A DNA stretch of 64,000 nt, taken from Thermodesulfomicrobium sp. WS. Its GTDB lineage: Bacteria; Desulfobacterota; Desulfovibrionia; Desulfovibrionales; Desulfomicrobiaceae. Below, piece by piece: positions 15,632 to 28,309 of the stretch (its first letter is position 1; the number at the start of each line of letters is the position of its first letter). The DNA lies in assembly GCF_027925145.1 (NCBI RefSeq), contig NZ_AP027130.1, forward strand, positions 1,612,001-1,676,000. Reading direction: 5' to 3'. The position numbers were made by a program, and so were the translations under genes. Under the pieces are notes generated by a model, which was not told the origin of the DNA, made no database searches, and worked only from the letters and a program-made list of their open reading frames with translations.

Positions 15632-15768
15632 GTCTCCTCCGGGGGCATTGACGCAATGCGCGCCTGCTCAAGGCTCATGACACGGGACCTATGGCCTGGG
15701 CAAGAGCACCTTGACGGCTTGCCCCATCCCGCCTACCCGCCCTCCATGACCACCATTGAGGTATGCTG

Positions 15769-16632
15769 ATGTTCCCGACATTTCCAGATGTTGCCCAAAA
15801 ACACCTGCACCAGCTCATTGCCATCGCCCTCGAAGAAGACGGCCCGGATGCCACAAGCCAGGCGGTGTTCCACCCTGAAGACACCCTCACCGCCAGCCTG
15901 GTGGCCAAGGCGGACGCGGTGATCGCGGGACTGCCTCTCGTGGATCTGGTGTTGGGCGCCACCGGCGCTCCCTACCACCTGACGCTTTTTGCCCGCGACG
16001 GCGAGCGCGTCGCTTCCGGCACCGAACTTGCCCGCATCCACGGGCAAGCGCAGGGCATCCTCAAGGCGGAGCGTGTCCTGCTCAACTTCCTGTGCCACCT
16101 CTGTGGAGTCGCCACGCTCACCCGCGCCTTTGTGGATGCCGTGGCCGGCACCGGCGTGCGCATCCTCGACACCCGCAAGACCACGCCGGGCATGCGCTTC
16201 CTCGAGAAGTACGCCGTGCGCATGGGCGGCGGCACCAATCACCGCATGGGCCTTGGCGACATGCTCATGCTCAAGGATAACCACATCGACCGCGCCGGCT
16301 CCATGACCGCAGCGGCCAAGGCGCTCCGCGCCGTCTACGGCCACAGCCTGCCCTTGGAAATCGAATGCCGCACCCTGGCCCATGTGGAAGAGGCCCTCGC
16401 CATCGGCCCGGAGCGCATCATGCTCGACAACATGGACCGAGCCACGCTGAAGCAAGCCATCGCTCGTATCGCCGGCCAGGTGGAGACAGAAGTGAGCGGA
16501 AACGTCACCCTGGCTACGGTACGCGCCATCGCCGAACTGGGCCCCACCTACATTTCCGTGGGCGCCCTCACCCATTCCGCGCCGGCCGCAGACCTGTCGC
16601 TGCGCATCACGTTTCCCAAGGAGACCACATGA
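15769..16632 (+). CDS. nadC: Nicotinate-nucleotide pyrophosphorylase (carboxylating)
   Basis: 287 residues of the NadC fold. It has the LNFLCHLCGVATLT segment, the quinolinate and phosphoribosyl site DTRKTTPGMR, the EKYAVRMGGGTNHRMGL stretch, LKDNH, the EIECRTL strand and a C-terminal ISVGALTHSA barrel turn. It converts quinolinate and PRPP to nicotinate mononucleotide. The ATG at 15769 is about nine bases after GAGG; one two codons earlier is too close. It overlaps nadA by four bases. nadB, the first gene of the pathway, lies 9 kb away beyond the signalling island. Confidence 0.95.
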   Translation: MFPTFPDVAQKHLHQLIAIALEEDGPDATSQAVFHPEDTLTASLVAKADAVIAGLPLVDLVLGATGAPYHLTLFARDGERVASGTELARIHGQAQGILKAERVLLNFLCHLCGVATLTRAFVDAVAGTGVRILDTRKTTPGMRFLEKYAVRMGGGTNHRMGLGDMLMLKDNHIDRAGSMTAAAKALRAVYGHSLPLEIECRTLAHVEEALAIGPERIMLDNMDRATLKQAIARIAGQVETEVSGNVTLATVRAIAELGPTYISVGALTHSAPAADLSLRITFPKETT

Positions 16633-17651
16633 CGAGCCTTGCCCAACAGATCGCCCGCCACCAGCACCGGCTGGCCATCCTCGCCCACCACTACCAGGCG
16701 GACGCCATCGTCGAGCACGCCCATTTTGTGGGCGATTCCCTGGAACTCGCCCGCCAGGTCACGGAACTCGCCGCCGAGCACATCGTGTTCTGCGGGGTGC
16801 ACTTCATGGCGGAAAGTGCGGCCATCCTCGCCCGGCCGGAGCAAAAAGTCCACGCCCCGGTGCTTCAAGCGGGCTGCGTCATGGCCAACATGGCGCCGGC
16901 CCCGCTCGTGGAGGCCGTGCTTGCCCGCCTTACTCGCAGCGGCGCGCGCGTCATTCCGCTGACCTACGTCAACTCCTCGGCAGCCATCAAAGCCGTGGTG
17001 GGGCGCGCCGGCGGGGCAGTATGCACCTCGGCCAACGCCCAACGCATGCTCCAATGGGCCTTGGAGCAGGGCGACTGCGTGCTCTTTCTCCCGGACGCCA
17101 ACCTGGGCGCCAACACCGCCCGGGCCATAGGTCTGCCGCAGACCAGCATAGAACGGCTCGACATCTGCGCAGGCGGACTCCACGTGCCCGCAGCCCAAGC
17201 GGACGTGCGCGTGTACCTGTGGCCCGGATGCTGCGCCGTGCACCACAAGATCCGCCTGGAGGACATCCAGGCGGTGCGCGCGAAGTTTCCCCAGGCGCGC
17301 ATCCTCGTGCACCCCGAGTGCCGACCCGAGGTGGTGGCCGCCGCCGACGGCGCCGGTTCCACCTCGTACCTCATCCGCGAAGCCGCACAAACCCCGGCAG
17401 GCAGCACCCTTGCCATCGGCACCGAAGACAACCTCGTCGCACGCCTTGCCCGCCGCCACCCCGAGGTGCGCATCCTGCCCGTGCGCCGGGTACTGTGCTC
17501 CAACATGGCCAAAACCGATGTCCACGCCCTCACCGCCAAACTCCAAGAGCTCGACACCGCCCAGCCGGTCCGCGTGGACGCGGCGACTGCGGCCGCAGCT
17601 CGCCTCGCCTTGGAGCGCATGCTCACGGCGTGCGCCCCACCGAATCGGTGA
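16629..17651 (+). CDS. nadA: Quinolinate synthase
   Basis: 340 residues of the NadA family, which condenses iminoaspartate (from NadB) with dihydroxyacetone phosphate. The sequence shows LAHHYQADAIVEHAHFVGDSL and the three family Fe-S cysteine regions: GCVMANM (Cys83), YLWPGCCAVH, and VLCSNMAKTD near the end. VNSSAAIKA and FLPDANLGANTA segments are also present. These support a [4Fe-4S] dehydratase-like catalyst. The start overlaps the nadC stop by four bases (ATGA). A small inverted repeat follows the stop. Confidence 0.95.
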   Translation: MTSLAQQIARHQHRLAILAHHYQADAIVEHAHFVGDSLELARQVTELAAEHIVFCGVHFMAESAAILARPEQKVHAPVLQAGCVMANMAPAPLVEAVLARLTRSGARVIPLTYVNSSAAIKAVVGRAGGAVCTSANAQRMLQWALEQGDCVLFLPDANLGANTARAIGLPQTSIERLDICAGGLHVPAAQADVRVYLWPGCCAVHHKIRLEDIQAVRAKFPQARILVHPECRPEVVAAADGAGSTSYLIREAAQTPAGSTLAIGTEDNLVARLARRHPEVRILPVRRVLCSNMAKTDVHALTAKLQELDTAQPVRVDAATAAAARLALERMLTACAPPNR

Positions 17652-17657
17652 GATTGA

Positions 17658-17677
17658 GGCGGCAATTTTTTGCCGCC
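17658..17677. terminator. Hairpin between convergent nadA and sigma-54 regulator
   Basis: GGCGGCAA (17658-17665) and TTGCCGCC (17670-17677) form a perfect eight-base stem with a TTTT loop. There is no T-run beyond it, so it is a weak intrinsic terminator at best. Its position between two convergent stops supports a termination role. It also marks the left boundary of the signalling island. Confidence 0.4.
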
Positions 17678-18733
17678 CTACGACAACCGCAACCCATAGT
17701 GGGCGAGCTTGTACCGCAGCGTGCGGGGGCTTACGTCCAAAATTTCCGCCAATCGGGCCTTACTCCCCCCCGCTGCTTCCCAAGCTCGCAAAATGGCAGC
17801 GATCTCGGCTTCGCGCACCGCAGTCTCCAGGCGTAAATCCCCTGCAGGCACGGCGGACACCATAGGGCGCACGCTTCCCAACCGCAGTTCCAAGGGCAGG
17901 TGGGAGACGTCGATACGGGCTTCACGACTCAAAAGGACAAGCCGTTCCATGAGGTTGCGCAGCTCGCGCACATTGCCTGGCCAGGAATAGCGCATGAGGG
18001 CGTCCATGGCAGCGTCGCTCATCTTCACCGACGGCTTGTGGTAGCGACGGCGGTAAATTTCCAAAAAATACTCCACCAGCGGTGGAATATCTTCGACACG
18101 GTCACGAAGGGGCGGCAGGGTCACCGCCACCACATGCAGCCGGTAGTAGAGGTCCGCCCGGAATTCGCCGGTGCGGATCATGGTTTGCAGGCAGCGATTG
18201 GTGGCCGCCACGATACGGGCATGGAAACCGATGGTTTTTTCTCCGCCGAGCCGCCGAAAACTTCGCTCTTCCAGCACCCGCAAAAAATCCACCTGGTTCG
18301 GCACCGGGATGTCGCCCACCTCGTCCAAAAAAAGCGTCCCGTGCCCAACGATCTCAAAAAGGCCTTTGCGCTGCCGGGAAGCACCGGTGAAGGCCCCGGG
18401 CTCATGGCCGAAAAATTTGTCGGCAAAAAGCTCGCCCTTCACCACGCCGCAATTGACCGGCACAAAGGGCTGGGAACGACGGCCGGACAGCTGATGCACC
18501 AGACGGGCGAACAACTCTTTGCCCGTGCCGGACTCCCCAGAAATCATCACCGTGGCGTCCGATCCCGCCACTTGCGTCGCCAGCTCGTACAGGTCTCGCA
18601 TGGCTTTGGACTGAAAGACAAATTGTCCTAATTCATCCGCAAAGCCGACATCGAAGATCTCGATGGCCGAGGCCTCTTCCGAAGGCCGCCGCTGCCCATT
18701 CCCGGAGACTGCCGTCTGCTTTTTCCGCCCCAT
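17678..18733 (-). CDS. Sigma-54-dependent transcriptional activator without receiver (PspF-like layout)
   Basis: 351 residues: a short N-terminal tail (about 40), then an AAA+ domain and a Fis-type HTH. Walker A is GESGTGKE (66-73), GAFTGA is at 113-118, Walker B LFLDE at about 134-138, and NVRELRN follows. The HTH region is GGSKARLAEILDVSPRTLRYKL near the end. With no sensor or receiver domain it must be controlled by expression, ligand-independent activity or a partner protein. It is divergent from the TauE operon, whose upstream region has a sigma-54-type promoter and GGCA/TGCC palindromes, so it is the best candidate activator. GAGG lies upstream of the ATG. Confidence 0.88.
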   Translation of the reverse strand: MGRKKQTAVSGNGQRRPSEEASAIEIFDVGFADELGQFVFQSKAMRDLYELATQVAGSDATVMISGESGTGKELFARLVHQLSGRRSQPFVPVNCGVVKGELFADKFFGHEPGAFTGASRQRKGLFEIVGHGTLFLDEVGDIPVPNQVDFLRVLEERSFRRLGGEKTIGFHARIVAATNRCLQTMIRTGEFRADLYYRLHVVAVTLPPLRDRVEDIPPLVEYFLEIYRRRYHKPSVKMSDAAMDALMRYSWPGNVRELRNLMERLVLLSREARIDVSHLPLELRLGSVRPMVSAVPAGDLRLETAVREAEIAAILRAWEAAGGSKARLAEILDVSPRTLRYKLAHYGLRLS

Positions 18734-18837
18734 GCATGACCTCGCCGCGATGCGTGCACCGCAGTGGCTCTACGCCATTCCCAACGCTTGTTCTTCCGGG
18801 CACATTGGCGGCCCGCCACCGAGGACCCCTCGCGCCC

Positions 18838-18880
18838 TGCCGGCAACATACTGCCAAAAACGGCAATATTTTGCCAGATA
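18838..18880. promoter_or_regulatory. Cluster of TGCC/GGCA palindromes, candidate enhancer sites
   Basis: Three overlapping or adjacent palindromes occur here: TGCCGGCA (18838-18845), TGCC-N6-GGCA (18852-18865) and GGCAATATTTTGCC (18862-18875). They lie 50-95 bases upstream of a sigma-54-type promoter and between two divergent genes, one of which encodes a sigma-54 activator. This is the expected placement for enhancer-binding-protein sites. The repeats are seen directly; the binding protein is inferred. Confidence 0.55.
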
Positions 18881-18929
18881 TTCGACCACGCTCGATATGT
18901 CAATAATTTGAATTTATTATATTTTTTAT

Positions 18930-18946
18930 TTGGCACTCATCTTGTT
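18930..18946 (+). promoter_or_regulatory. Sigma-54 (-24/-12) promoter of the TauE-phosphorelay operon
   Basis: TTGGCAC at 18930-18936 is followed after five bases by TTG, giving GG-N10-GT. The consensus is TGGCAC-N5-TTGC with GG-N10-GC, so only the -12 C is replaced by T. The element sits in a very AT-rich tract about 80 bases before the TauE start. The window encodes RpoN and a divergent sigma-54 activator, which supports the call. Confidence 0.65.
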
Positions 18947-19024
18947 ATTTCTTTCACAGAACTGCCGCGCGGGGGATCCGCGCCTGGTACGATCCATCAT
19001 CAACCGAAGAGGAGAGAAACAGGA

Positions 19025-20005
19025 ATGAAACCCAACACCTGGAAAATGGCCTGCGGCTGTGCCCTGGCCCTTGTGGCCATGGCCGCTTTGGCATGGGCCG
19101 CCAACGACACCGGCGTTGGCGCGGAAATGACCCAACAATTGGCCACAGCCGGGGCCAAGACACCCCTGCCCTGGTGGGCGTGGCCCCTCATCTTGGCGAT
19201 CTTCTGTTTTGTACTGGGCGTCATTGCCGTGCTCGCGGGCGTGGGCGGCGGCGTGCTCTTCGTGCCTTTGGTCAGCGGCTTTTTCCCCTTTCATCTGGAC
19301 TTCGTGCGCGGGGCCGGTCTTCTGGTGGCCCTAGCCGGCGCCCTTGCCGCTGGGCCAGGACTTCTCAAGCGCAACCTGGCTAGCCTTCGTCTGGCCCTAC
19401 CAGTGGCCCTCATCGCCTCCAGCTGTGCTATCGTCGGCGCCTTCTTGGGCCTCGCGCTGCCCACCAATGTGGTACAGATCTGTCTTGGCAGTACCATTAT
19501 CTTCATCGCCGCCTTGCTTTTCTTCTCCAAGAACACCGCCCGCCCCGTGGTCACCAAGCAAGACGCCATCGGCCTTGCCTTGGGCATCCATGGGGCCTAC
19601 CTCGACGCGTCCACCGGAGAAGTGGTGGAGTGGAAGACCCACCGCACCCTTTGGGGCCTGCTGCTCTTCATCGTCATCGGGATCATGGCCGGCATGTTCG
19701 GCTTGGGTGCCGGTTGGGCCAATGTGCCGGTGCTCAACCTCATGATGGGTGTCCCCCTGAAGGTGGCTGTGGGGACCAGTAAGTTTCTCCTGTCCATCAC
19801 CGACACCTCGGCCGCGTGGGTGTACCTCAACAAAGGCTGCGTCATCCCGCTCATGGCCATTCCCTCCATCGTGGGACTCATGGCCGGGTCTTTTGTGGGT
19901 GTCCGCCTCTTGGCGATCGCCAAGCCCGCGTTCATCCGGTATATGGTCATCGGCGTGTTACTCTTTTCCGGCGTGAAGGCCCTGCTCAAAGGCCTGGGCA
20001 TCTAA
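19025..20005 (+). CDS. TauE/SafE-family exporter (sulfite/sulfonate-type permease)
   Basis: 326 residues. A signal-like hydrophobic N-terminus (about 9-27) is followed by around eight membrane spans with the family glycine-rich turns GVGGGVLFVPL and MFGLGAGWANVP in the two internal repeats. TauE/SafE proteins export sulfite, sulfonates or related anions. The loop between halves (about 180-205) contains a soluble insertion with HGAYLDASTGEVVEW. AGAGGAGAGAAACAGGA precedes the ATG. It is the first gene of the island operon behind the sigma-54-type promoter. In a sulfate reducer sulfite or a sulfonate is a reasonable cargo, but the substrate is not shown. Confidence 0.82.
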   Translation: MKPNTWKMACGCALALVAMAALAWAANDTGVGAEMTQQLATAGAKTPLPWWAWPLILAIFCFVLGVIAVLAGVGGGVLFVPLVSGFFPFHLDFVRGAGLLVALAGALAAGPGLLKRNLASLRLALPVALIASSCAIVGAFLGLALPTNVVQICLGSTIIFIAALLFFSKNTARPVVTKQDAIGLALGIHGAYLDASTGEVVEWKTHRTLWGLLLFIVIGIMAGMFGLGAGWANVPVLNLMMGVPLKVAVGTSKFLLSITDTSAAWVYLNKGCVIPLMAIPSIVGLMAGSFVGVRLLAIAKPAFIRYMVIGVLLFSGVKALLKGLGI

Positions 20006-20032
20006 ACCACAACCTCTGTGGAGGAGAACCGT

Positions 20033-20449
20033 ATGCATACCAACACCAACGCTCCCAAAGAACAGCTCGTATATGCCGACATCCTCTTTTATGGATGCTG
20101 GACCGGGCTCGCCCTCATGGCCATCACCTACCTGCTCTATGTCTCTGGAATCATGGAGCCCTACGTCTCCATGCAACTCATCACCCAGTATTGGTCCATG
20201 CCCGTCCACGAGTATCTTACCGCCAACAATGTGCCGACGGGTTGGGGATGGGTCTCTTTGCTCGGCAAAGGCGACTTCCTCAATTTCCTAGGCATTGCCC
20301 TGCTCTCTGGCCTTACCATCGCCGGATTTGCGTACCTCACCGTGGCCTACTTCAAGCAAAAGGACTTCAAGTTCGCCATCATCTCTTTGCTGGAAGTCCT
20401 CACTCTCTGCCTGGCCGCGTCGGGTATCATCGGCGGCGGAGCCCACTAA
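20033..20449 (+). CDS. DUF1634-like small membrane protein
   Basis: 138 residues with about three membrane spans (around 22-42, 85-107 and 115-135), a conserved-looking YADILFYGCWTGL opening and a glycine C-terminus. This resembles DUF1634 proteins, which frequently neighbour TauE/SafE permeases and may be accessory subunits. GAGGAG is well placed before the ATG at 20033, 27 bases after the TauE stop. The family assignment is from pattern memory and the accessory role is inference. Confidence 0.6.
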   Translation: MHTNTNAPKEQLVYADILFYGCWTGLALMAITYLLYVSGIMEPYVSMQLITQYWSMPVHEYLTANNVPTGWGWVSLLGKGDFLNFLGIALLSGLTIAGFAYLTVAYFKQKDFKFAIISLLEVLTLCLAASGIIGGGAH

Positions 20450-20452
20450 CCC

Positions 20453-21586
20453 ATGAACATCTCCCTGCTGGACATCCTGGACGCCCTGCCTGTGGGCTGC
20501 ATCGTTCTGGATCCCCACCGTCGGGTGCGCACGCTCAATGCCGCCATGGAGTCCCTCCTCGGCTACGCACGAGACGAAGTCGCCGGACTCCCCTGTCGGC
20601 ACGTGTTGCGCAGCCGCCGGTGTATCCAGAATTGCCCGCACGCCTCAGACGGGGCGCCAAGCCCAGGGGGACGCACCGACTGCCTCTCGCGCCACCGGCG
20701 CATCATCCCCATCAACCTCACCCCGGTGCGCCTGACGACGGACCAGGGCGCGGTATATCTCGACATCGTGGAAGATCTCTCGCCGATCCACAGCCTGGAA
20801 GCCCGGCTCAACCAGACCGCCACCGAAGACTCCTTGGTGGGTCGCTCCCCGGCCATGGAGCGCATCCTGCGCTTGGTGCCCATGGTGGCCGGCCACAGTG
20901 CCCCCATCCTCATCACCGGCGAAACCGGGACGGGCAAAGGCCGCCTGGCCCATGCCATCCACAAGGCTTCCCCACGGGCGCGCCAGCCTTTTATCCGCTT
21001 CAGCTGCGGCCCCATGGCCGAAGAAATCCTGGAAGCCGAGCTCTTCGGCAAAACCGCCCCTGCCCCCCAACCTGGCCGCTTCCAGCAGGCCCAAGGGGGG
21101 ACCCTGTATCTGGCCGAGATCGAATCGCTGCCGCCCTCCATCCAGACGCGCCTTCTTCGCTTTCTCGACGAAGGCACGATTCAGCCGCAGGGGGGGCATC
21201 CCATGCGGGTTGATGTCCGGCTCATGGCCTCTACCATGACCGACCCTGCCACGCTCGCGGCCGCAGGCAGGCTCTGCGAAAATCTCTTCCACCGTTTGGC
21301 GGCGGTGCGTCTGGATCTGCCCCCCCTGCGCGAGCGTCCAGAAGACGTAGCCTTTCTCCTGCACTATTTTCGCGAACATTTCGCCCAGCGCTTGAAAAAG
21401 AACATCTCCGGCTTCACCCCCAAGGCCTTGAGCATGCTCCATGCCCATCCCTTTCCCGGAAACGTACGGGAACTCAAAAACATCATGGAATTTGCCGTCC
21501 TCGTATGTCCTGAAGGAGATGTCCGGCCACAACACCTCCCGGGGTATCTGCTCCGCCAACCGCAGCGCCGCGGCCGTAAGGAGTGA
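20453..21586 (+). CDS. Degenerate sigma-54 activator-like protein: PAS-AAA+ without GAFTGA or HTH
   Basis: 377 residues. A PAS domain (1-115) contains a cysteine cluster C48-x8-C57-x3-C61 plus Cys77. An AAA+ domain has intact Walker A GETGTGKG (156-163) and the later NVRELKN. The sigma-54-contacting loop is replaced by FGKTAPAPQPGRF (198-210), so GAFTGA is gone. Walker B reads LYLAE (218-222) with Ala where catalytic Asp is expected. The chain ends soon after the AAA+ domain, with no DNA-binding helix-turn-helix. It probably binds nucleotide but neither hydrolyses efficiently nor activates sigma-54. The PAS cysteines suggest a redox or metal cofactor. It starts four bases after the DUF1634-like gene. 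Confidence 0.78.
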   Translation: MNISLLDILDALPVGCIVLDPHRRVRTLNAAMESLLGYARDEVAGLPCRHVLRSRRCIQNCPHASDGAPSPGGRTDCLSRHRRIIPINLTPVRLTTDQGAVYLDIVEDLSPIHSLEARLNQTATEDSLVGRSPAMERILRLVPMVAGHSAPILITGETGTGKGRLAHAIHKASPRARQPFIRFSCGPMAEEILEAELFGKTAPAPQPGRFQQAQGGTLYLAEIESLPPSIQTRLLRFLDEGTIQPQGGHPMRVDVRLMASTMTDPATLAAAGRLCENLFHRLAAVRLDLPPLRERPEDVAFLLHYFREHFAQRLKKNISGFTPKALSMLHAHPFPGNVRELKNIMEFAVLVCPEGDVRPQHLPGYLLRQPQRRGRKE

Positions 21587-21589
21587 GCC

Positions 21590-21940
21590 ATGGAGCGCCG
21601 CATCCTCATCACCACCGACCGCGACGAAATCGCCCCCCGTTTCGATCTCGCCATGGAGGTCCTCATCCTGCGCCTGGCTGAGGGCGGGGAGATCGTGGCC
21701 CGCAAATCGCTCCTCCTTGCCCACCCTTCCGCGGACGAGCTCTGTAACCTCATCCTTGAACGGGACATGGATGCCGTGGTATGCGGGGGCATCGAAGAAG
21801 AATACTCCCACTACCTGCGCTGGAAACGGGTCGAAGTCTTTGATGGCGTCATTGGCTCCGTGGCTGCGGTCATTGACCGCCTGCGCACAGGCACCCTCAA
21901 CCCAGGAGACATCGTGGGATTTTCTGGAGCTCCAGCATGA
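21590..21940 (+). CDS. NifX/NifB-type dinitrogenase cofactor-like domain protein
   Basis: 116 residues resembling the NifX/MTH1175 superfamily: an opening strand with ILITTDRDEIAPRFDLA, an AVVCGGIEEEY turn and a late FDGVIGSVAAVID segment. In nitrogen fixation such domains carry iron-molybdenum cofactor precursors, and stand-alone versions are common in anaerobes with unknown roles. No nif genes are present here. It lies four bases after the degenerate activator and overlaps the kinase start by four bases. A cofactor- or metal-linked sensing role in the relay is possible but unproven. Confidence 0.6.
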   Translation: MERRILITTDRDEIAPRFDLAMEVLILRLAEGGEIVARKSLLLAHPSADELCNLILERDMDAVVCGGIEEEYSHYLRWKRVEVFDGVIGSVAAVIDRLRTGTLNPGDIVGFSGAPA

Positions 21941-23643
21941 AAGAAGAAGCCCCCAGTTCTTGGGCAGAGGCCGCCACCGCGCCTTCCCGCTACCGCACGT
22001 TGCAACGCAAAATCGTGGCACTCATCGCCGTGGCGGCCTTGCTTCCACTCTTCTCGCTTGCCTTCATCAATTATTATGAGCACCAGCATGCCCTGACCGC
22101 CCAAGTGCAAGAGCCGCTGCGTGCCTTGGTAGGAAAGACCAAGCACTCATTTGAACTGTATCTCACAGAACGCATCTCTGCAATCAATTTCATCGCATCG
22201 GCGTATTCTTTCGAACAGCTTGCCGACAAAACAGCACTCAACCGAATATTCCAAATCATGTCGCAAGCATTTACTGGATTCGTCGACATATCCCTCATCG
22301 ATGAGTCCGGAAAACTCATTTCCTATGTAGGACCATACAACCTCAAAGATATCAACTATACAGAACAGAAATGGTTTCAACAGGTACTTCTGCGTGGTTC
22401 CTACATTAGCGATGTCTTTCTCGGTTTTCGGCAATTTCCCCACGTCGTCGTTGCGGTGCGCCACAATAACCCTGATGGCCGCAGCTGGATTGTGCGGGCA
22501 ACGCTGGACACCGCCCAATTTGAAAACATCATCGCCTCCATGGGACTGGAACCTGGCAGTGACGCCTTTCTCACCGACCGCAAAGGCGTGCTCCAAACCG
22601 AATCCCGGCAGTATGGCCATGTCCTCGAAACCCTGCCTTTCTCCCTGCCCCCCGCCAACTACGAAGCCAATGTCTACGACTTTGCAGACCCTGCCGGGGG
22701 ACAGTACTTTCTCGCTCTGAGCCAAATCGCCAACACGGACTTCGTGCTCGTGGCCATGAAACCGAGGCCATCGCTGCTCAAGGCCTGGTACACAGTGCGC
22801 CTGGACATGGTTGCGGTCTTTGTCGCCGGGGTATGCGTCATTTTCGCAGGGGTCTTCGCCGCCACCCGCATGATCATCCAGCGGCTCCAAGAGAGCGACG
22901 CCCAGCGCCTGGCCGCCATCCACCAAATGGAGCACACCCAGCGTTTGTCGTCCATCGGCCGTCTGGCCGCCGGCGTGGCCCATGAGATCAACAACCCCTT
23001 GGCCATCATCAACGAAAAAGCCGGACTGCTGCGCGATCTCTTGGAGCTGCGCCCCGATTTTCCCGACAAAGAGCGCTTTGCCAAACAAATCGACGCGATT
23101 CTCCGTTCTGTGGATCGGTGCCGCGGCATTACCCACCGCATGCTTGGGTTTGCCAAACGCATGGACGTCAAGATCGAGATCTTGGACCTCAACGCCGTCA
23201 TTACGGAAACCATTGGATTCTTGGAACGCGAGGCCCAATACCGCAATGTCACCATCGAGCGGCGCCTGGCGCCCGATCTGCCGCAAATCCCTTCGGATTA
23301 CGGCCAGATCCAGCAGGTCGTCCTCAACATCCTCAATAATGCCCTGGCAGCCGTGGCCGACGGTGGCACCATCGCCGTCTCCACCTGGGATGAAGGGGAA
23401 CGTGTCGGCATTGCCGTTGCCGACAACGGTTGCGGCATGTCAGAAGAAACGGTCAAACACATCTTCGAGCCCTTTTTCACCACCAAAAAAGAGAAAGGCA
23501 CCGGCCTGGGCATGTCCATCACCTATGGCATCGTCAAACGCTTAGGCGGCGACATTCATATCCAAAGCGCCCTGGGCAAGGGCACCACCGTCACCATCTT
23601 CCTGCCCAAACATCCGCCGGAAGAACAAGGAGGCAGTCTATGA
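21937..23643 (+). CDS. Membrane sensor histidine kinase (Cache-like sensor)
   Basis: 568 residues. Two membrane spans (about 26-47 and 288-311) bracket a periplasmic region of about 240 residues that resembles a double-Cache ligand sensor. The kinase core is complete: HisKA with GVAHEINNP (His349), N box LNILNNAL, DNGCGM, EPFFTTK, GTGLGM and a final GKGTTV. It should be the input kinase of the island relay. DNA encoding the first part of the sensor (about 22,130-22,420) is AT-richer than the flanks. The start overlaps the NifX-like stop by four bases. Confidence 0.9.
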   Translation: MKEEAPSSWAEAATAPSRYRTLQRKIVALIAVAALLPLFSLAFINYYEHQHALTAQVQEPLRALVGKTKHSFELYLTERISAINFIASAYSFEQLADKTALNRIFQIMSQAFTGFVDISLIDESGKLISYVGPYNLKDINYTEQKWFQQVLLRGSYISDVFLGFRQFPHVVVAVRHNNPDGRSWIVRATLDTAQFENIIASMGLEPGSDAFLTDRKGVLQTESRQYGHVLETLPFSLPPANYEANVYDFADPAGGQYFLALSQIANTDFVLVAMKPRPSLLKAWYTVRLDMVAVFVAGVCVIFAGVFAATRMIIQRLQESDAQRLAAIHQMEHTQRLSSIGRLAAGVAHEINNPLAIINEKAGLLRDLLELRPDFPDKERFAKQIDAILRSVDRCRGITHRMLGFAKRMDVKIEILDLNAVITETIGFLEREAQYRNVTIERRLAPDLPQIPSDYGQIQQVVLNILNNALAAVADGGTIAVSTWDEGERVGIAVADNGCGMSEETVKHIFEPFFTTKKEKGTGLGMSITYGIVKRLGGDIHIQSALGKGTTVTIFLPKHPPEEQGGSL

Positions 23644-24020
23644 TCCTTCCCTCCACCCTGCTTGTGGTCGACGACGAGGAGGAATTCGCCACCACCCTGG
23701 CCGAACGGCTGGAGATCCGGGGCATTGCCACGCGTGTCGCCCATGACGGGGAGACCGCCGTGCACATGGTGGCCGAGGCCGCACCCCAGGCCGTGCTCCT
23801 CGATGTCCTCATGCCGGGCATGAAAGGGCTCGACGTCCTCACCCGGCTGCGGGAAACCCACCCCCAGATCCCGGTCATCCTCCTCACCGGCCAAGGCACG
23901 ACCCGAGACGGCATCGAGGGTATGCATCGCGGCGCTTTTGCCTATCTCACCAAACCCGTGGATTTGGAGGAGCTTTTGCGGACCCTCTCCGAAGCCATGG
24001 AGCGGGGAGGCCAATCATGA
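23640..24020 (+). CDS. Stand-alone response-regulator receiver 1
   Basis: 126 residues, receiver domain only. It has the acidic pair VVDDEEE, phospho-acceptor Asp in LLDVLMPG, Thr in LLTGQG and Lys in TKPVD. There is no output domain, as in CheY or Spo0F-like phosphorelay intermediates. It overlaps the upstream kinase stop and the downstream HPt-like start by four bases each (ATGA), so stoichiometric coupled expression is likely. Confidence 0.9.
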   Translation: MILPSTLLVVDDEEEFATTLAERLEIRGIATRVAHDGETAVHMVAEAAPQAVLLDVLMPGMKGLDVLTRLRETHPQIPVILLTGQGTTRDGIEGMHRGAFAYLTKPVDLEELLRTLSEAMERGGQS

Positions 24021-24628
24021 CCTTCGACTCCACGCGGGCCATGGGCGCCATGACCGCCATGACCACCCACGAACTCCAGAATATCCTGGCCATCATCCGG
24101 GAGTCTGCAGGACTCTTGGGCGACATCCTCGACATCAACGCCAAGGTGGCGCTCCAGCACCGCCCCAAGATCCACGAGGCCCTGGAGCACATCGCCACCC
24201 AAGTCGACCGAGGCAAACGCCTCCTCACGGCCATGAACCGCCTCGGCCACGCCACGGACGTGGAGCAGCAGGAGTCCTGCGACCTCTCCCCCCAGGTGGC
24301 CGCCTTGATGGACCTGTGCCAGCGCCCAGCGCGCCTCAAAGAAATCCAATTGCGCTTTACCCCTGCAGGCCAACCCTTGCCGGTGCGTACCTCGGCCATG
24401 GACGTGTTCAGCCGCGGCTTCACCGTGCTGCGCGCCGCCATTGATCTCTGTCCCGCGGGCAGCGTCCTTGATGCCAGTATCGTTCCAGGCCCACCCCAGC
24501 ATGCGCTGGTCATGACCCTCCCGGTTTCGCCCAAGGATTCTCCCGTGCTCGCCGCCCTTGCCGAGGCCGGGCACATCGAGATCCACGGGCGCACCATCCA
24601 CCTTCTCTTTCCGGCGGCCACCCCATGA
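24017..24628 (+). CDS. HPt-like / HisKA-only phosphotransfer protein
   Basis: 203 residues. A HisKA-like helix carries TTHELQNILAI with His18 as candidate phosphoryl acceptor. A second helical region follows, then a C-terminal part (about 110-200) that looks like a collapsed ATPase fold without N, G1, F or G2 motifs. This layout resembles Spo0B/ChpT-type histidine phosphotransferases, which derive from kinases and shuttle phosphate between receivers. It lies between two receiver-only genes with four-base overlaps on both sides, which fits a phosphorelay node. The His has not been proven and the family call is structural inference. Confidence 0.6.
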   Translation: MTFDSTRAMGAMTAMTTHELQNILAIIRESAGLLGDILDINAKVALQHRPKIHEALEHIATQVDRGKRLLTAMNRLGHATDVEQQESCDLSPQVAALMDLCQRPARLKEIQLRFTPAGQPLPVRTSAMDVFSRGFTVLRAAIDLCPAGSVLDASIVPGPPQHALVMTLPVSPKDSPVLAALAEAGHIEIHGRTIHLLFPAATP

Positions 24629-25002
24629 ACGCCCTGCGCATCTGTCTCATCGACGACGAAGAAGGCTTCGTCACCACCTTGGCCGAGCGTCTGGAGCTGC
24701 GCGGGCACACGCCGATTGTGGCGCTCAACGGCGAAGAGGGACTCCAGCGCATTGCCGAGCACTCCCCCCACGTGGTGGTCCTCGACCTGCGCATGCCGGG
24801 TATTGGCGGCATGGAGACCTTGCGCCGCATTCGCGCCGCCTGGCCGAAACTCCCGGTGGTGATGCTCAGCGGCCACGGCGCAGAGGCGGACATCGCCGTC
24901 TGCCTGCGTTCAGGCGCCCAGGCGTATCTCAAAAAACCCACCGACATCAGCCAACTCCTGGCCACCATCCACGAAGTCCTCGAACCATCGGGAGGCCAAT
25001 AG
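24625..25002 (+). CDS. Stand-alone response-regulator receiver 2
   Basis: 125 residues, receiver only. Acidic pocket is LIDDEEG, acceptor Asp lies in VVLDLRMPG, switch residue Ser in MLSGHG, and Lys in KKPTD. It closely resembles receiver 1 (both contain TTLAERLE), suggesting duplication inside the operon. It overlaps the HPt-like stop by four bases and abuts the hybrid kinase start with no gap. Confidence 0.9.
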   Translation: MNALRICLIDDEEGFVTTLAERLELRGHTPIVALNGEEGLQRIAEHSPHVVVLDLRMPGIGGMETLRRIRAAWPKLPVVMLSGHGAEADIAVCLRSGAQAYLKKPTDISQLLATIHEVLEPSGGQ

Positions 25003-26157
25003 ATGGCGCGTGTCCTGGTGGTGGATGACGAACGGCAGTTTGCGGAGACGCTGGCAGAGCGCCTGCGTACCCGAGGGATGGAAGTGCACACCGCCTATGA
25101 CGGTGCAAGCGCCGTGGAGGCGGTGCGCCAAACCCACCCCGACGTCGTGCTGCTGGATCTCTCCATGCCGGGCATGGACGGCCTTGCCGCCCTCAAGGCC
25201 ATCAAAGAGCTCGTGCCGCGTACCGAAGTGGTCCTGCTCACTGCGGAAAGCGGACTTGCCGCGGCAGTGGGCGGCATGAAACGTGGGGCGGCCGATTACA
25301 TCGTCAAACCAGCACCTTTGGAGCGCATCCTCAAAGCCATCCAGGAGGCAGAAGCCCACCGCCTTGATGCCGCGCAGCGCCAGCGCATGGCGGAAACGGC
25401 CCGGCTGGCGGCCTTGGGAGAACTCGCCGTCGGCGTAGCCCACGAAATCAACAACCCGCTGCAAATCGTGCTCAACGAGGCAGGGTGGATGGCCGAGACC
25501 CTTGCGGAAACCCCAATGGAGCAAAGCGCCCGCAGGGAGCTCGAAGAGTCGCTTGCCACCATCCGCGAGCAAACCGCCCGCTGCAAGGCCGTCACCACCA
25601 AGCTCCTCTCGCTGCGGGCAGCAGTGCCGGCAGACGACACGCCGCAGCCGCTCGCCCGCCTCATCGCCCAGCTTCTCGAAGACCGCCGCAGCCGCTGGCA
25701 AGGACGGTTTTTTGTCGAACACACCTGCCCGCCGTCCCTTATGGTGTCCGCGGAAACCTGGAGGCACATCCTTGCCCCGCTGGTGGACAACGCCTTGGAC
25801 GCCCTGGAAGCCCAAGGCGCCGCCACCCCGGAAGCGACGCAGGCGCAGCTTCGTCTTTGCATCCACGCCTCCCAGGCGCCCCAAGAGATCGTCGTCCAGG
25901 TGCAGGACACGGGCATCGGCATGGAACCTGGGGTCCTGGCCCGTATTTTCGAGCCATTCTTTTCCACCAAAGAGGTGGGCAAAGGCATGGGACTGGGGCT
26001 GAGCCTCTGCCATGCCCTCGTCGAGGCCTTGGGAGGACGCATCGAAATCGCCAGCACACCCCACCACGGGACAACGGTGTCCGTCACCATTCCATACACC
26101 GCAATCACCGCGCCAACCGCGGGGTTGGCCACAGCCAAGGAGGACTCTCATGAATAG
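25003..26157 (+). CDS. Receiver-histidine kinase hybrid (soluble)
   Basis: 384 residues. The N-terminal receiver (1-120) has VVDDERQ, acceptor Asp in LLDLSMPG, Thr in LLTAES and Lys in VKPAP. A complete kinase core follows: GVAHEINNP with His147, N box LVDNALDAL, DTGIGM, EPFFSTK and GMGLGL. No membrane span is present. Receiver-first hybrids typically relay a signal received from another kinase and can be gated by phosphorylation of the receiver. It starts immediately after receiver 2 and overlaps the last receiver gene by eight bases. Confidence 0.9.
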   Translation: MARVLVVDDERQFAETLAERLRTRGMEVHTAYDGASAVEAVRQTHPDVVLLDLSMPGMDGLAALKAIKELVPRTEVVLLTAESGLAAAVGGMKRGAADYIVKPAPLERILKAIQEAEAHRLDAAQRQRMAETARLAALGELAVGVAHEINNPLQIVLNEAGWMAETLAETPMEQSARRELEESLATIREQTARCKAVTTKLLSLRAAVPADDTPQPLARLIAQLLEDRRSRWQGRFFVEHTCPPSLMVSAETWRHILAPLVDNALDALEAQGAATPEATQAQLRLCIHASQAPQEIVVQVQDTGIGMEPGVLARIFEPFFSTKEVGKGMGLGLSLCHALVEALGGRIEIASTPHHGTTVSVTIPYTAITAPTAGLATAKEDSHE

Positions 26158-26569
26158 CATGCGACTGCTCATCGTGGACGATGAAAAAGACCTGTGCCGG
26201 ATTCTCGCCGACCGGCTCCATATCCTCTACGGGATCACGCCGGACATCGCCCATACGGGCGACCAGGCCTTGGAGATGGCACGCGCCAAGCGCTACGACG
26301 TCGTCGTCCTGGACATCGAGATGCCCGGCATCGACGGCATCGAGACCTTGAAGCGCCTCAAGGAGATCGACAAAAAGATCCAGGTGGTGTTGTTTACCGG
26401 TCATGGCAACGAAGAGCGCCAGCGCATGGCCGAAGTCCTCGGGGCCTTCAGCTACGTGGACAAGATCGACGGCCTGCCCAAGCTGGCGCCCATGATCGAG
26501 GGGGCCTTCCGCCTGCGCAAGCTGCTGGAAGACACCTACGCCGAGGCCGCCCTCAACGAGTACAACTAA
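26150..26569 (+). CDS. Stand-alone response-regulator receiver (last gene of island)
   Basis: 139 residues, receiver only. Acidic pocket is LIVDDEKD, acceptor Asp lies in VVLDIEMPG, and Thr in LFTGHG. The usual Lys-Pro is replaced by VDKID, keeping Lys but losing Pro. The tail is an acidic helix. AAGGAGG lies before the ATG at 26150. It closes the operon, and a terminator follows 31 bases later. No DNA-binding domain is present, leaving the operon without a classic output regulator. Confidence 0.88.
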   Translation: MNSMRLLIVDDEKDLCRILADRLHILYGITPDIAHTGDQALEMARAKRYDVVVLDIEMPGIDGIETLKRLKEIDKKIQVVLFTGHGNEERQRMAEVLGAFSYVDKIDGLPKLAPMIEGAFRLRKLLEDTYAEAALNEYN

Positions 26570-26600
26570 TCCGTCCGCGCCGGGGCGCTCGGCGCGGCGC

Positions 26601-26657
26601 AACCAGGGAAGGGCACAGCCCCAGGAACGCTGGCGGTGTCCTTCCCTGGTTCTTTTT
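26601..26657 (+). terminator. Terminator of the signalling-island operon
   Basis: AACCAGGGAAGG (26601-26612) pairs perfectly with CCTTCCCTGGTT (26640-26651) over a 27-base loop that can itself fold, followed by CTTTTTC. It ends the ten-gene operon and separates it from nadB, marking the right edge of the island. Confidence 0.75.
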
Positions 26658-26731
26658 CCGGCGCGCACCCCCCTTGCCAAACGCCCGCCTTTGCGCAAAC
26701 CCCTCCCGCAAGCCCATCGCGGAGGGAGCTC

Positions 26732-28309
26732 ATGGAACGCTTGAAGACCGAAATCCTTGTCATTGGCGCGGGCATTGCCGGATGCACGGCTGCCATCACC
26801 CTGGCCGACGCCGGCCGGGAAGTCACCCTGCTCTCCTCAGGGCCTTTGGACGCGGGCAACACCCCCCTCGCCCAAGGCGGCATCGTCTATACTGCCCCGG
26901 AAGACAGCCCGGACCTCCTCGTGCACGACATCACCGTGGCCGGAGCCCACTACGTGTACGACCACGCGGTCCGTTTCCTCGCAACCCAAGGGCCCAAAGC
27001 CGTGGAGGAGTTTCTCCTCGGCCGCGTGCAGGTGCCCTTCGATACCTGCCCGGACGGCTCCCTCTACCGCACCAAGGAAGGCGGCCACAGCATCGCCCGC
27101 ATCCTCACCCATGCCGACGCCACAGGCCGGGCCATCCACGACGCCCTCACACGGGTGGTCACCAGCCACCCCAATATCCGCATCCTGACCGGATGCACGG
27201 CCATCGACCTCCTCACCACCCGGCACCACGCCACTTCCCTGGAGTTCCGCTACCAGCTCACCAACCAATGCGTGGGGGCCTACGTCTTCGATGCCGCCAG
27301 CGGCGAGCCCGCCACCATCCTGGCGGACGCCACCATCCTCGCCACCGGCGGGGTGGGGCAGATCTTCCTGCACACCACCAATTGCGCCTCCTCCATCGGC
27401 TCGGGCCTGGCCATGGCCAGCCGCGCCGGCGTGCGGCTCATGAACCTGGAATACATCCAGTTTCACCCCACCGCCCTCTTTTCCCGCTCGGAACGCAAGT
27501 TCCTCATCTCCGAGGCCGTGCGCGGCGAAGGGGCCCGGCTCTTCAACGCCAAGGGCGAGCGCTTCATGGCCAAGTACGACGAACGCATGGAGCTCGCCCC
27601 CCGGGACATCGTCGCCCGCGCCATCGCCGACGAGATCCTCCACTCCGGTGAAGACTGCGTCTTTCTGGACGCCGCCAACTTCGTGGACGCCAATCTCAAA
27701 AAGCGCTTTCCCACCATCTACGCCCGCTGCCAGGAGATGGGCATCGACATCACCCGCGAACGCATCCCCGTGGTGCCGGCGGCGCACTACAGCTGCGGCG
27801 GCATTCTCGTGGACGAACACGGACGCACCAGCATCGATCGCCTCTACGCCGCAGGCGAGTGCGCCTGCACCGGGGTCCACGGGGCCAACCGCCTGGCATC
27901 GACCTCGCTTTTGGAAGGTCTTCTGTGGGGGCTTTCCGCAGCAAAGCACATCATCCACAACGCCGACGCCGACCACTGCCCACTCTCCAAGCGACTCCAA
28001 GACGCCATCCCGGACTGGATCACCTCCGGCAAGAGCGAAAACGAGGACCCGGCCCTCATTCATCAGGACTGGGTGACCATCCGCAGCACCATGTGGAACT
28101 ACATGGGCATCGTCCGCACCACACCTCGTCTGGAACGGGCCTTCGAAGACTTACGCAATCTCAACAAGAGGCTGCACACCTTCTACAAATCCATCCGTGT
28201 CTCCAAGGCGTCCATCGACCTCTTCCACGGCTGCCAAACTGCGTACATCATCACCACAGCGGCGCTGCGCAACAAAGAAAGCCGCGGCTGCCATTTCCGC
28301 CCCCGGTAG
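26732..28309 (+). CDS. nadB: L-aspartate oxidase
   Basis: 525 residues of the NadB/fumarate-reductase flavoprotein family. The FAD-binding start reads ILVIGAGIAGCTAAITLA, followed by AQGGIVY, EGGHSIARIL, LATGGVGQIF and the substrate-site segment HPTALF. The capping and C-terminal stretch includes VPAAHYSCGG and GECACTGVHGANRLAS. NadB oxidises aspartate to iminoaspartate for NadA. GGAGGGAG precedes the ATG at 26732. nadC and nadA are 9 kb upstream; nadB here stands alone between the island terminator and convergent selO. Confidence 0.95.
   Translation: MERLKTEILVIGAGIAGCTAAITLADAGREVTLLSSGPLDAGNTPLAQGGIVYTAPEDSPDLLVHDITVAGAHYVYDHAVRFLATQGPKAVEEFLLGRVQVPFDTCPDGSLYRTKEGGHSIARILTHADATGRAIHDALTRVVTSHPNIRILTGCTAIDLLTTRHHATSLEFRYQLTNQCVGAYVFDAASGEPATILADATILATGGVGQIFLHTTNCASSIGSGLAMASRAGVRLMNLEYIQFHPTALFSRSERKFLISEAVRGEGARLFNAKGERFMAKYDERMELAPRDIVARAIADEILHSGEDCVFLDAANFVDANLKKRFPTIYARCQEMGIDITRERIPVVPAAHYSCGGILVDEHGRTSIDRLYAAGECACTGVHGANRLASTSLLEGLLWGLSAAKHIIHNADADHCPLSKRLQDAIPDWITSGKSENEDPALIHQDWVTIRSTMWNYMGIVRTTPRLERAFEDLRNLNKRLHTFYKSIRVSKASIDLFHGCQTAYIITTAALRNKESRGCHFRPR

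Follow-up and report, generated by a model that had tools for sequence, protein, structure and literature searches.

What can a relative of the sigma54 activators still do when it carries neither the loop that contacts sigma54 nor a domain that grips DNA? This question is raised by the gene at positions 20453 to 21586 of the window, by which we mean the whole stretch of 64,000 nucleotides analysed here (Thermodesulfomicrobium sp. WS, contig NZ_AP027130.1, positions 1,612,001 to 1,676,000). Its product, EBP2960, is encoded next to a divergent activator, EBP2956, in a genome with one sigma54 gene. As judged from sequence, a sigma54 activator has probably been split in two here, with EBP2960 as a sensor subunit dedicated to EBP2956 and acting on it in trans, a reading to which we give a probability of about 0.55. 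AAA+ activator rings with inactive subunits have been studied mostly via engineered mixtures; EBP2960 would be a natural partner in which precisely the loop for sigma54 and the hold on DNA are gone, and offers material for testing inactive ring subunits.

An activator relative without output features

The two genes and the cysteine cluster lie as follows:
20453-21586, + strand: degenerate activator relative EBP2960 (P0001), with PAS at about residues 8-108, linker helix at 110-123 and AAA+ at about 128-373
20594-20635, + strand: PAS cysteine cluster C48-x8-C57-x3-C61 (codons TGT, TGT and TGC)
17678-18733, - strand: divergent sensor-less activator EBP2956 (P0002), with AAA+, GAFTGA, LFLDE Walker B, both arginine fingers and HTH_8

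EBP2960 is a 377-aa protein with an ATG start, in which a PAS domain (Pfam match at residues 8-99) precedes an AAA+ domain of the sigma54-activator family (Sigma54_activat, PF00158, residues 128-287, 145.9 bits for a cut-off of 20.2 bits) and its lid (AAA_lid_14, PF25601, residues 293-373). The chain stops directly after the lid, and no HTH family is matched in it by Pfam. When the protein is aligned with ZraR and NtrC1, whose structures are known, a 6-residue deletion falls exactly at GAFTGA. As regards the bEBP criteria, the Sigma54_activat AAA+ domain with its lid is present, and the GAFTGA loop and C-terminal HTH are absent. The original prediction had described a lost sigma54-contacting loop, an absent DNA-binding domain and an intact Walker A motif, and it is borne out on these points, Walker A reading GETGTGKG. 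Walker B reads LYLAEI, with Ala for Asp and the catalytic Glu kept, and the sensor II Arg is kept too; in the window genus (G000 and G001) the first arginine-finger Arg is replaced by Cys and the second finger is kept.

The fold is modelled confidently by AlphaFold2 (mean pLDDT 91.3, from 68 window- and locus-derived sequences), and its best PDB matches are the AAA+ domains of NtrC1, ZraR, FleQ, LuxO, NtrX and PspF. The gene is tightly packed, beginning 3 bp after its upstream neighbour and ending 3 bp before the downstream one, and the window copy is free of frameshifts.

Fixation of the losses across orthologues

Orthologues were collected from relatives, and 95 loci, the window included, were analysed with their flanks. 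They form two groups. Group I comprises 62 loci across the Desulfovibrionales, among them the window; none of the 62 has a normal GAFTGA, the motif being either changed or deleted, and HTH is absent in 56/62. Whether the losses are fixed across orthologues, which the original prediction had left to an alignment, is thus answered positively. Group II comprises 33 loci without a sensor-less neighbour, and GAFTGA is present in 32 of them (the exception being L146), as is HTH (the exception being L135, which reaches the contig end). Since the same losses are fixed in 62 orthologous loci, the observation is more than chance.

The Walker A Lys and the sensor II Arg are found in 62/62 group I loci, the catalytic Glu of Walker B in 56/62, with Asp at its position in the other 6, and the two arginine fingers are kept in 51/62 and 55/62, one or both being gone in lineages g21 and g41. 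These counts indicate that nucleotide and ring features are kept and output features lost. The glutamate-switch Asn is present in 32 of the 62 group I loci and in every group II locus. The Walker B Asp is absent from both groups, being replaced by S, A, P or T in group I and by T throughout group II (33/33). Its loss is therefore not among EBP2960's own losses: the Ala for Asp noticed originally is a real substitution, and as a hallmark of EBP2960 it is rejected.

Between the window copy and G001 (the G000-G001 pair), dN/dS is 0.0096/0.076, that is about 0.13, and it lies at about 0.08-0.22 in other close pairs, as under purifying selection. Together with the fixation in group I, these low ratios argue that the EBP2960 gene is maintained for a function different from direct sigma54 activation.

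In a tree built with the loop columns removed, group I is a single clade (SH-aLRT 96). Its first branch is g24 (6 loci), a Nitratidesulfovibrio-type genus with GAFPGA and an intact HTH, matching DVU2960 of D. vulgaris; lineages with G..PWA-type remnants and no HTH come after it, and in the remaining lineages, window included, the loop is shortened or deleted. A stepwise loss from GAFPGA with HTH, through G..PWA without HTH, to loop deletion is likely, and not more than likely because branch supports inside the clade vary. The sister lineages at these three apparent stages add to the material for testing inactive ring subunits.

A separate event is seen in group II, where L146 (genome G173) carries NALPGA instead of GAFTGA, has an HTH and no sensor-less neighbour, and represents an independent motif loss.

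The divergent activator

The window copy of EBP2956 matches AAA+, lid and HTH_8 in Pfam, and no sensor domain is found in it by Pfam. GAFTGA, the sigma54-contact motif, is carried by EBP2956 only, of the two partners. The flank can be read completely at 60 of the group I loci, and at every one of them EBP2956 is the divergent neighbour; it is partly readable at two further ones, L122 (at a contig edge) and L136. Its copies in these 60 loci have GA[F/Y]TGA (60/60), the Walker B Asp-Glu (60/60) and both arginine fingers. An EBP2956-type activator occurs in 61 genomes of the order-wide sample, and among 297 genomes sampled from the phylum no relative outside the order is found at E <= 1e-92.

As far as domain content goes, EBP2956 and EBP2960 are complementary halves, the one an output without sensor, the other a sensor without output. 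The link to the divergent activator that had been proposed for this gene is thus strongly supported, both by adjacency in every readable locus and by complementary domain losses.

Predicted promoter, enhancer sites and operon

Between and downstream of the two divergent genes, the following features are found:
18841-18855, + strand: predicted enhancer dyad 1, CGGCAACATACTGCC; relatives have conserved dyads of this type ahead of the operon
18861-18875, + strand: predicted enhancer dyad 2, CGGCAATATTTTGCC, 20 bp after dyad 1
18930-18946, + strand: candidate sigma54-type -24/-12 promoter, TTGGCAC-N5-TTGTT, predicted from sequence
19025-20005, + strand: TauE/SafE-family (TSUP) transporter (PF01925, 120 bits), first gene of the operon, start inferred
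20033-20449, + strand: putative membrane protein, 138 aa long and without assigned family, which is a conserved member of the operon and adjoins the TauE-family transporter in group I loci
21590-21940, + strand: NifX/ORP-like protein (PF02579)
21937-23643, + strand: sensor histidine kinase with dCache domain, belonging to this gene cluster (domain match, gene order)
23637-24020, 24625-25002 and 26147-26569, + strand: response regulators (domain matches, synteny)
24017-24628, + strand: HisKA-only protein (domain match, synteny)
25003-26157, + strand: receiver-kinase hybrid (domain match, synteny)

The predicted dyads are of the CGGCAA-N4-TTGCCG type and lie between the EBP2956 gene and the operon. 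A GGCA-N6-TGCC core is present in 22 of 23 representative intergenic regions, often paired 20-22 bp apart. Genome sampling with the dyad pattern, at most one mismatch being allowed, yields 45 forward and 62 reverse matches, compared with 17 and 19 for a reversed control pattern. The -24/-12 candidate scores just moderately above shuffled sequence in relatives. A perfect palindrome, CGGCAATTTTTTGCCG, is also seen at 17660-17675, just past the 3' end of the EBP2956 gene; it is of an enhancer-dyad-like type, but could be a terminator.

The gene order is conserved as transporter, membrane protein, PAS/AAA+ protein, NifX-like protein, histidine kinase and receiver genes, and the synteny of the block at 23637-26569 is conserved in the Desulfomicrobiaceae and largely beyond. 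The 138-aa putative membrane protein has no Pfam or NCBIfam match. The NifX-like gene follows the PAS-activator gene in group I and in nearly all of group II, which suggests that the PAS activator and this protein of metal-cluster-binding type form a functional pair. No ATPase domain is found in the HisKA-like protein at 24017-24628, whose position between two receiver genes is kept in relatives; it is possibly a phosphotransfer or docking protein. In the window genus, the whole regulatory island (window 15763-28309) is flanked by nadC/nadA-like and nadB-like genes.

Comparison with known systems

The PspF gene lies divergent from the operon that PspF drives, and PspA is a coiled-coil membrane-stress protein. 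The window, likewise, has a sensor-less activator divergent from a sigma54 operon encoding a regulator, with this gene order in all readable loci. In the PspF/PspA case the operon product inhibits the activator in trans (PMC7057263), and inhibition would be the more likely sign for the window pair as well. A difference is that EBP2960 is itself related to the activators, with PAS and AAA+, and PspA is not. PspF and HrpS, both sensor-less, are inhibited in trans (PMC7057263).

The closest described counterpart in gene arrangement is found in D. vulgaris, where DVU2956 is without N-terminal domain and divergent from the DVU2957-DVU2964 operon; DVU2960, inside this operon, carries GAFPGA, and its function was left open (Kazakov et al., 2015, PMC4641369). 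In EMSA, purified DVU2956 bound the operon upstream/promoter region and DVU2960 did not; for activators without N-terminal domains, dependence on a partner protein or membership in a cascade was offered as possibilities (PMC4641369). DVU2958 belongs to the TSUP transporters, within a clade for which sulfate transport has been considered (PMC5840216), and biofilm formation is reportedly repressed by DVU2956 (review PMC8586430). Like this locus, the window has a sigma54 operon whose range includes a TSUP transporter and a second activator with altered GAFTGA, and a sensor-less activator gene lying divergent from it. The g24 loci have GAFPGA and the same gene order as the DVU2960 locus, and their orthology with D. 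vulgaris is deduced from motif and order. DVU2960 with its GAFPGA and the g24 loci with GAFPGA and HTH differ in this from the window copy, in which the loop is deleted and HTH is absent. In the open-licence literature, we found no proposal that a protein of the DVU2960 type would be a regulatory subunit of one of the DVU2956 type. A split activator would offer a function for DVU2960, to which the D. vulgaris sigma54 study assigned none, and the missing sensor for DVU2956, a regulator that reportedly controls biofilm formation and the production of sulfide.

Hetero-oligomeric activators are known, namely HrpR/HrpS, FleQ/FleT, VnfA1/VnfA3 and RedR1/RedR2 (PMC9542535, PMC7057263). In each of these, two activator relatives act together, as the window pair would, judging from adjacency and complementary domains. 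For FleQ/FleT and VnfA1/VnfZ-VnfA3, the first activator drives the operon encoding the second, with a translationally coupled accessory protein in the Vnf case (PMC7277832, PMC9542535); in the window, similarly, the second activator is encoded in the predicted target operon of the first. HrpR and HrpS keep all characteristic motifs and lack regulatory domains (PMC7057263), whereas in the window pair one partner is without sigma54 loop and HTH and holds the only sensor. Finally, the group II PAS-activator paralogues share with EBP2960 the C-x8-C-x3-C PAS, the loss of the Walker B Asp (Thr) and, nearly always, the NifX-like gene downstream; unlike EBP2960, they still carry both GAFTGA and HTH, and no sensor-less activator adjoins them.

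A proposed split activator and its alternatives

The domain losses of EBP2960, shared by many sulfate reducers and set beside a constant neighbour that has exactly the lost parts, make it most likely the signal-reading regulatory subunit of this neighbour. EBP2956 would provide the output, as an AAA+ motor that has GAFTGA and HTH but is devoid of a sensor. The input would come from EBP2960, whose PAS is attached to an AAA+ domain in which the features for nucleotide binding and rings persist, and which would be unable to touch sigma54 or DNA. That the sensor subunit of this activator split into two genes is a signal-gated decoy or regulatory subunit, lying inside the partner's AAA+ ring or capping it, has about even chances. 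Contact would probably be made via mixed AAA+ rings, the signal perceived by the PAS deciding whether the EBP2960 AAA+ domain joins or caps those of EBP2956. The EBP2960 gene sits in an operon predicted, from the -24/-12 and enhancer sites, to be switched on by EBP2956, so that the EBP2960 level would follow operon activity. EBP2960 could then be a feedback anti-activator, comparable to PspA on PspF, whose inhibition would be released or strengthened by the PAS signal. An inhibitory sign appears more likely because (i) the sensor-less PspF and HrpS are restrained in trans, and (ii) a loop-less subunit with altered catalytic surroundings is expected to stall the ring; by analogy with FleT or VnfA3, the sign could also be positive. 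If true, EBP2960 would be an activator-derived, dedicated regulatory subunit, kept for regulation across a bacterial order.

Several points temper the split-activator model. As the group I clade shares one synteny block, adjacency and GAFTGA loss amount essentially to one evolutionary event, not many. Against the model, a GAFTGA-altered relative without sensor-less neighbour, L146, exists. The AAA+ domains of EBP2956 and EBP2960 are too distant within the family for joint packing in one ring to be taken for granted, and the arginine-finger losses in g21 and g41 weaken a catalytic role in the ring.

EBP2960 might alternatively be needed for EBP2956 activity, or boost it, in the manner of FleT with FleQ and of VnfA3 with VnfA1. 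The gene topology matches both FleQ/FleT and VnfA1/VnfZ-VnfA3 (PMC7277832, PMC9542535), with the NifX-like gene occupying the position of the Vnf accessory protein. HrpR and HrpS keep all motifs, however, and the literature consulted reports no co-activator subunit without sigma54 loop; a protein with no GAFTGA, altered Walker B and sensor I, and a glutamate-switch Asn lost in about half of the orthologues seems fitter for blocking a ring. We regard co-activation as the main rival of inhibition, with a rather low probability. Still less probable is that EBP2960 is a nucleotide-gated PAS sensor which, instead of EBP2956, has another target in the operon (the NifX-like protein, the histidine kinase cascade or the transporter). 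A nucleotide switch would be compatible with the kept Walker A and sensor II Arg, the NifX-like gene follows in group I and group II alike, and kinase and receiver genes are conserved downstream; this would nevertheless leave unexplained why losses and sensor-less neighbour coincide in one clade, and why the two domain sets are complementary. A decaying pseudogene or functionless copy, which the loss of several canonical motifs and of one arginine finger in the window genus might evoke and which the original prediction had tied to orthologues with a normal motif, is rejected as extremely improbable, since all 62 orthologous loci are without GAFTGA, dN/dS is well below 1, the fold is confident, and the gene is tightly packed and free of frameshifts.

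The PAS cysteine cluster

The C-x8-C-x3-C pattern first noticed in the PAS, with one more Cys, is indeed present, the further cysteines being C77 and also C16, and it turns out to be family-wide. C48, C57 and C61 are each found in at least 90% of 68 aligned sequences, from both groups, and the cluster is common to group II and the more distant paralogue P0003; g17 and some of the g34/g35 copies no longer have it, and C77 is seen in Desulfomicrobiaceae sequences. Redox or metal sensing by the PAS is thus plausible, yet would not be peculiar to EBP2960. As a trait of the wider PAS-activator family that some orthologues have lost, the cluster does not mark EBP2960's special role, and it is rejected as its distinctive trait.

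We found nothing specific in the literature on a Cys-PAS sigma54 sensor or a selenoprotein sigma54 regulator. At the exact C57 column, an in-frame TGA is found in two relatives, L068:4717 (+) and L156:1350 (+), and nowhere else among the matches listed. The former is an orthologue in a Desulfomicrobium-like MAG; the latter, from a single-contig genome, is a paralogue that bears GAFTDA, and a 9-bp hairpin lies a short way 3' of its TGA. Both genomes carry selB, and the TGA hints, as a lead, at a selenocysteine in place of C57.
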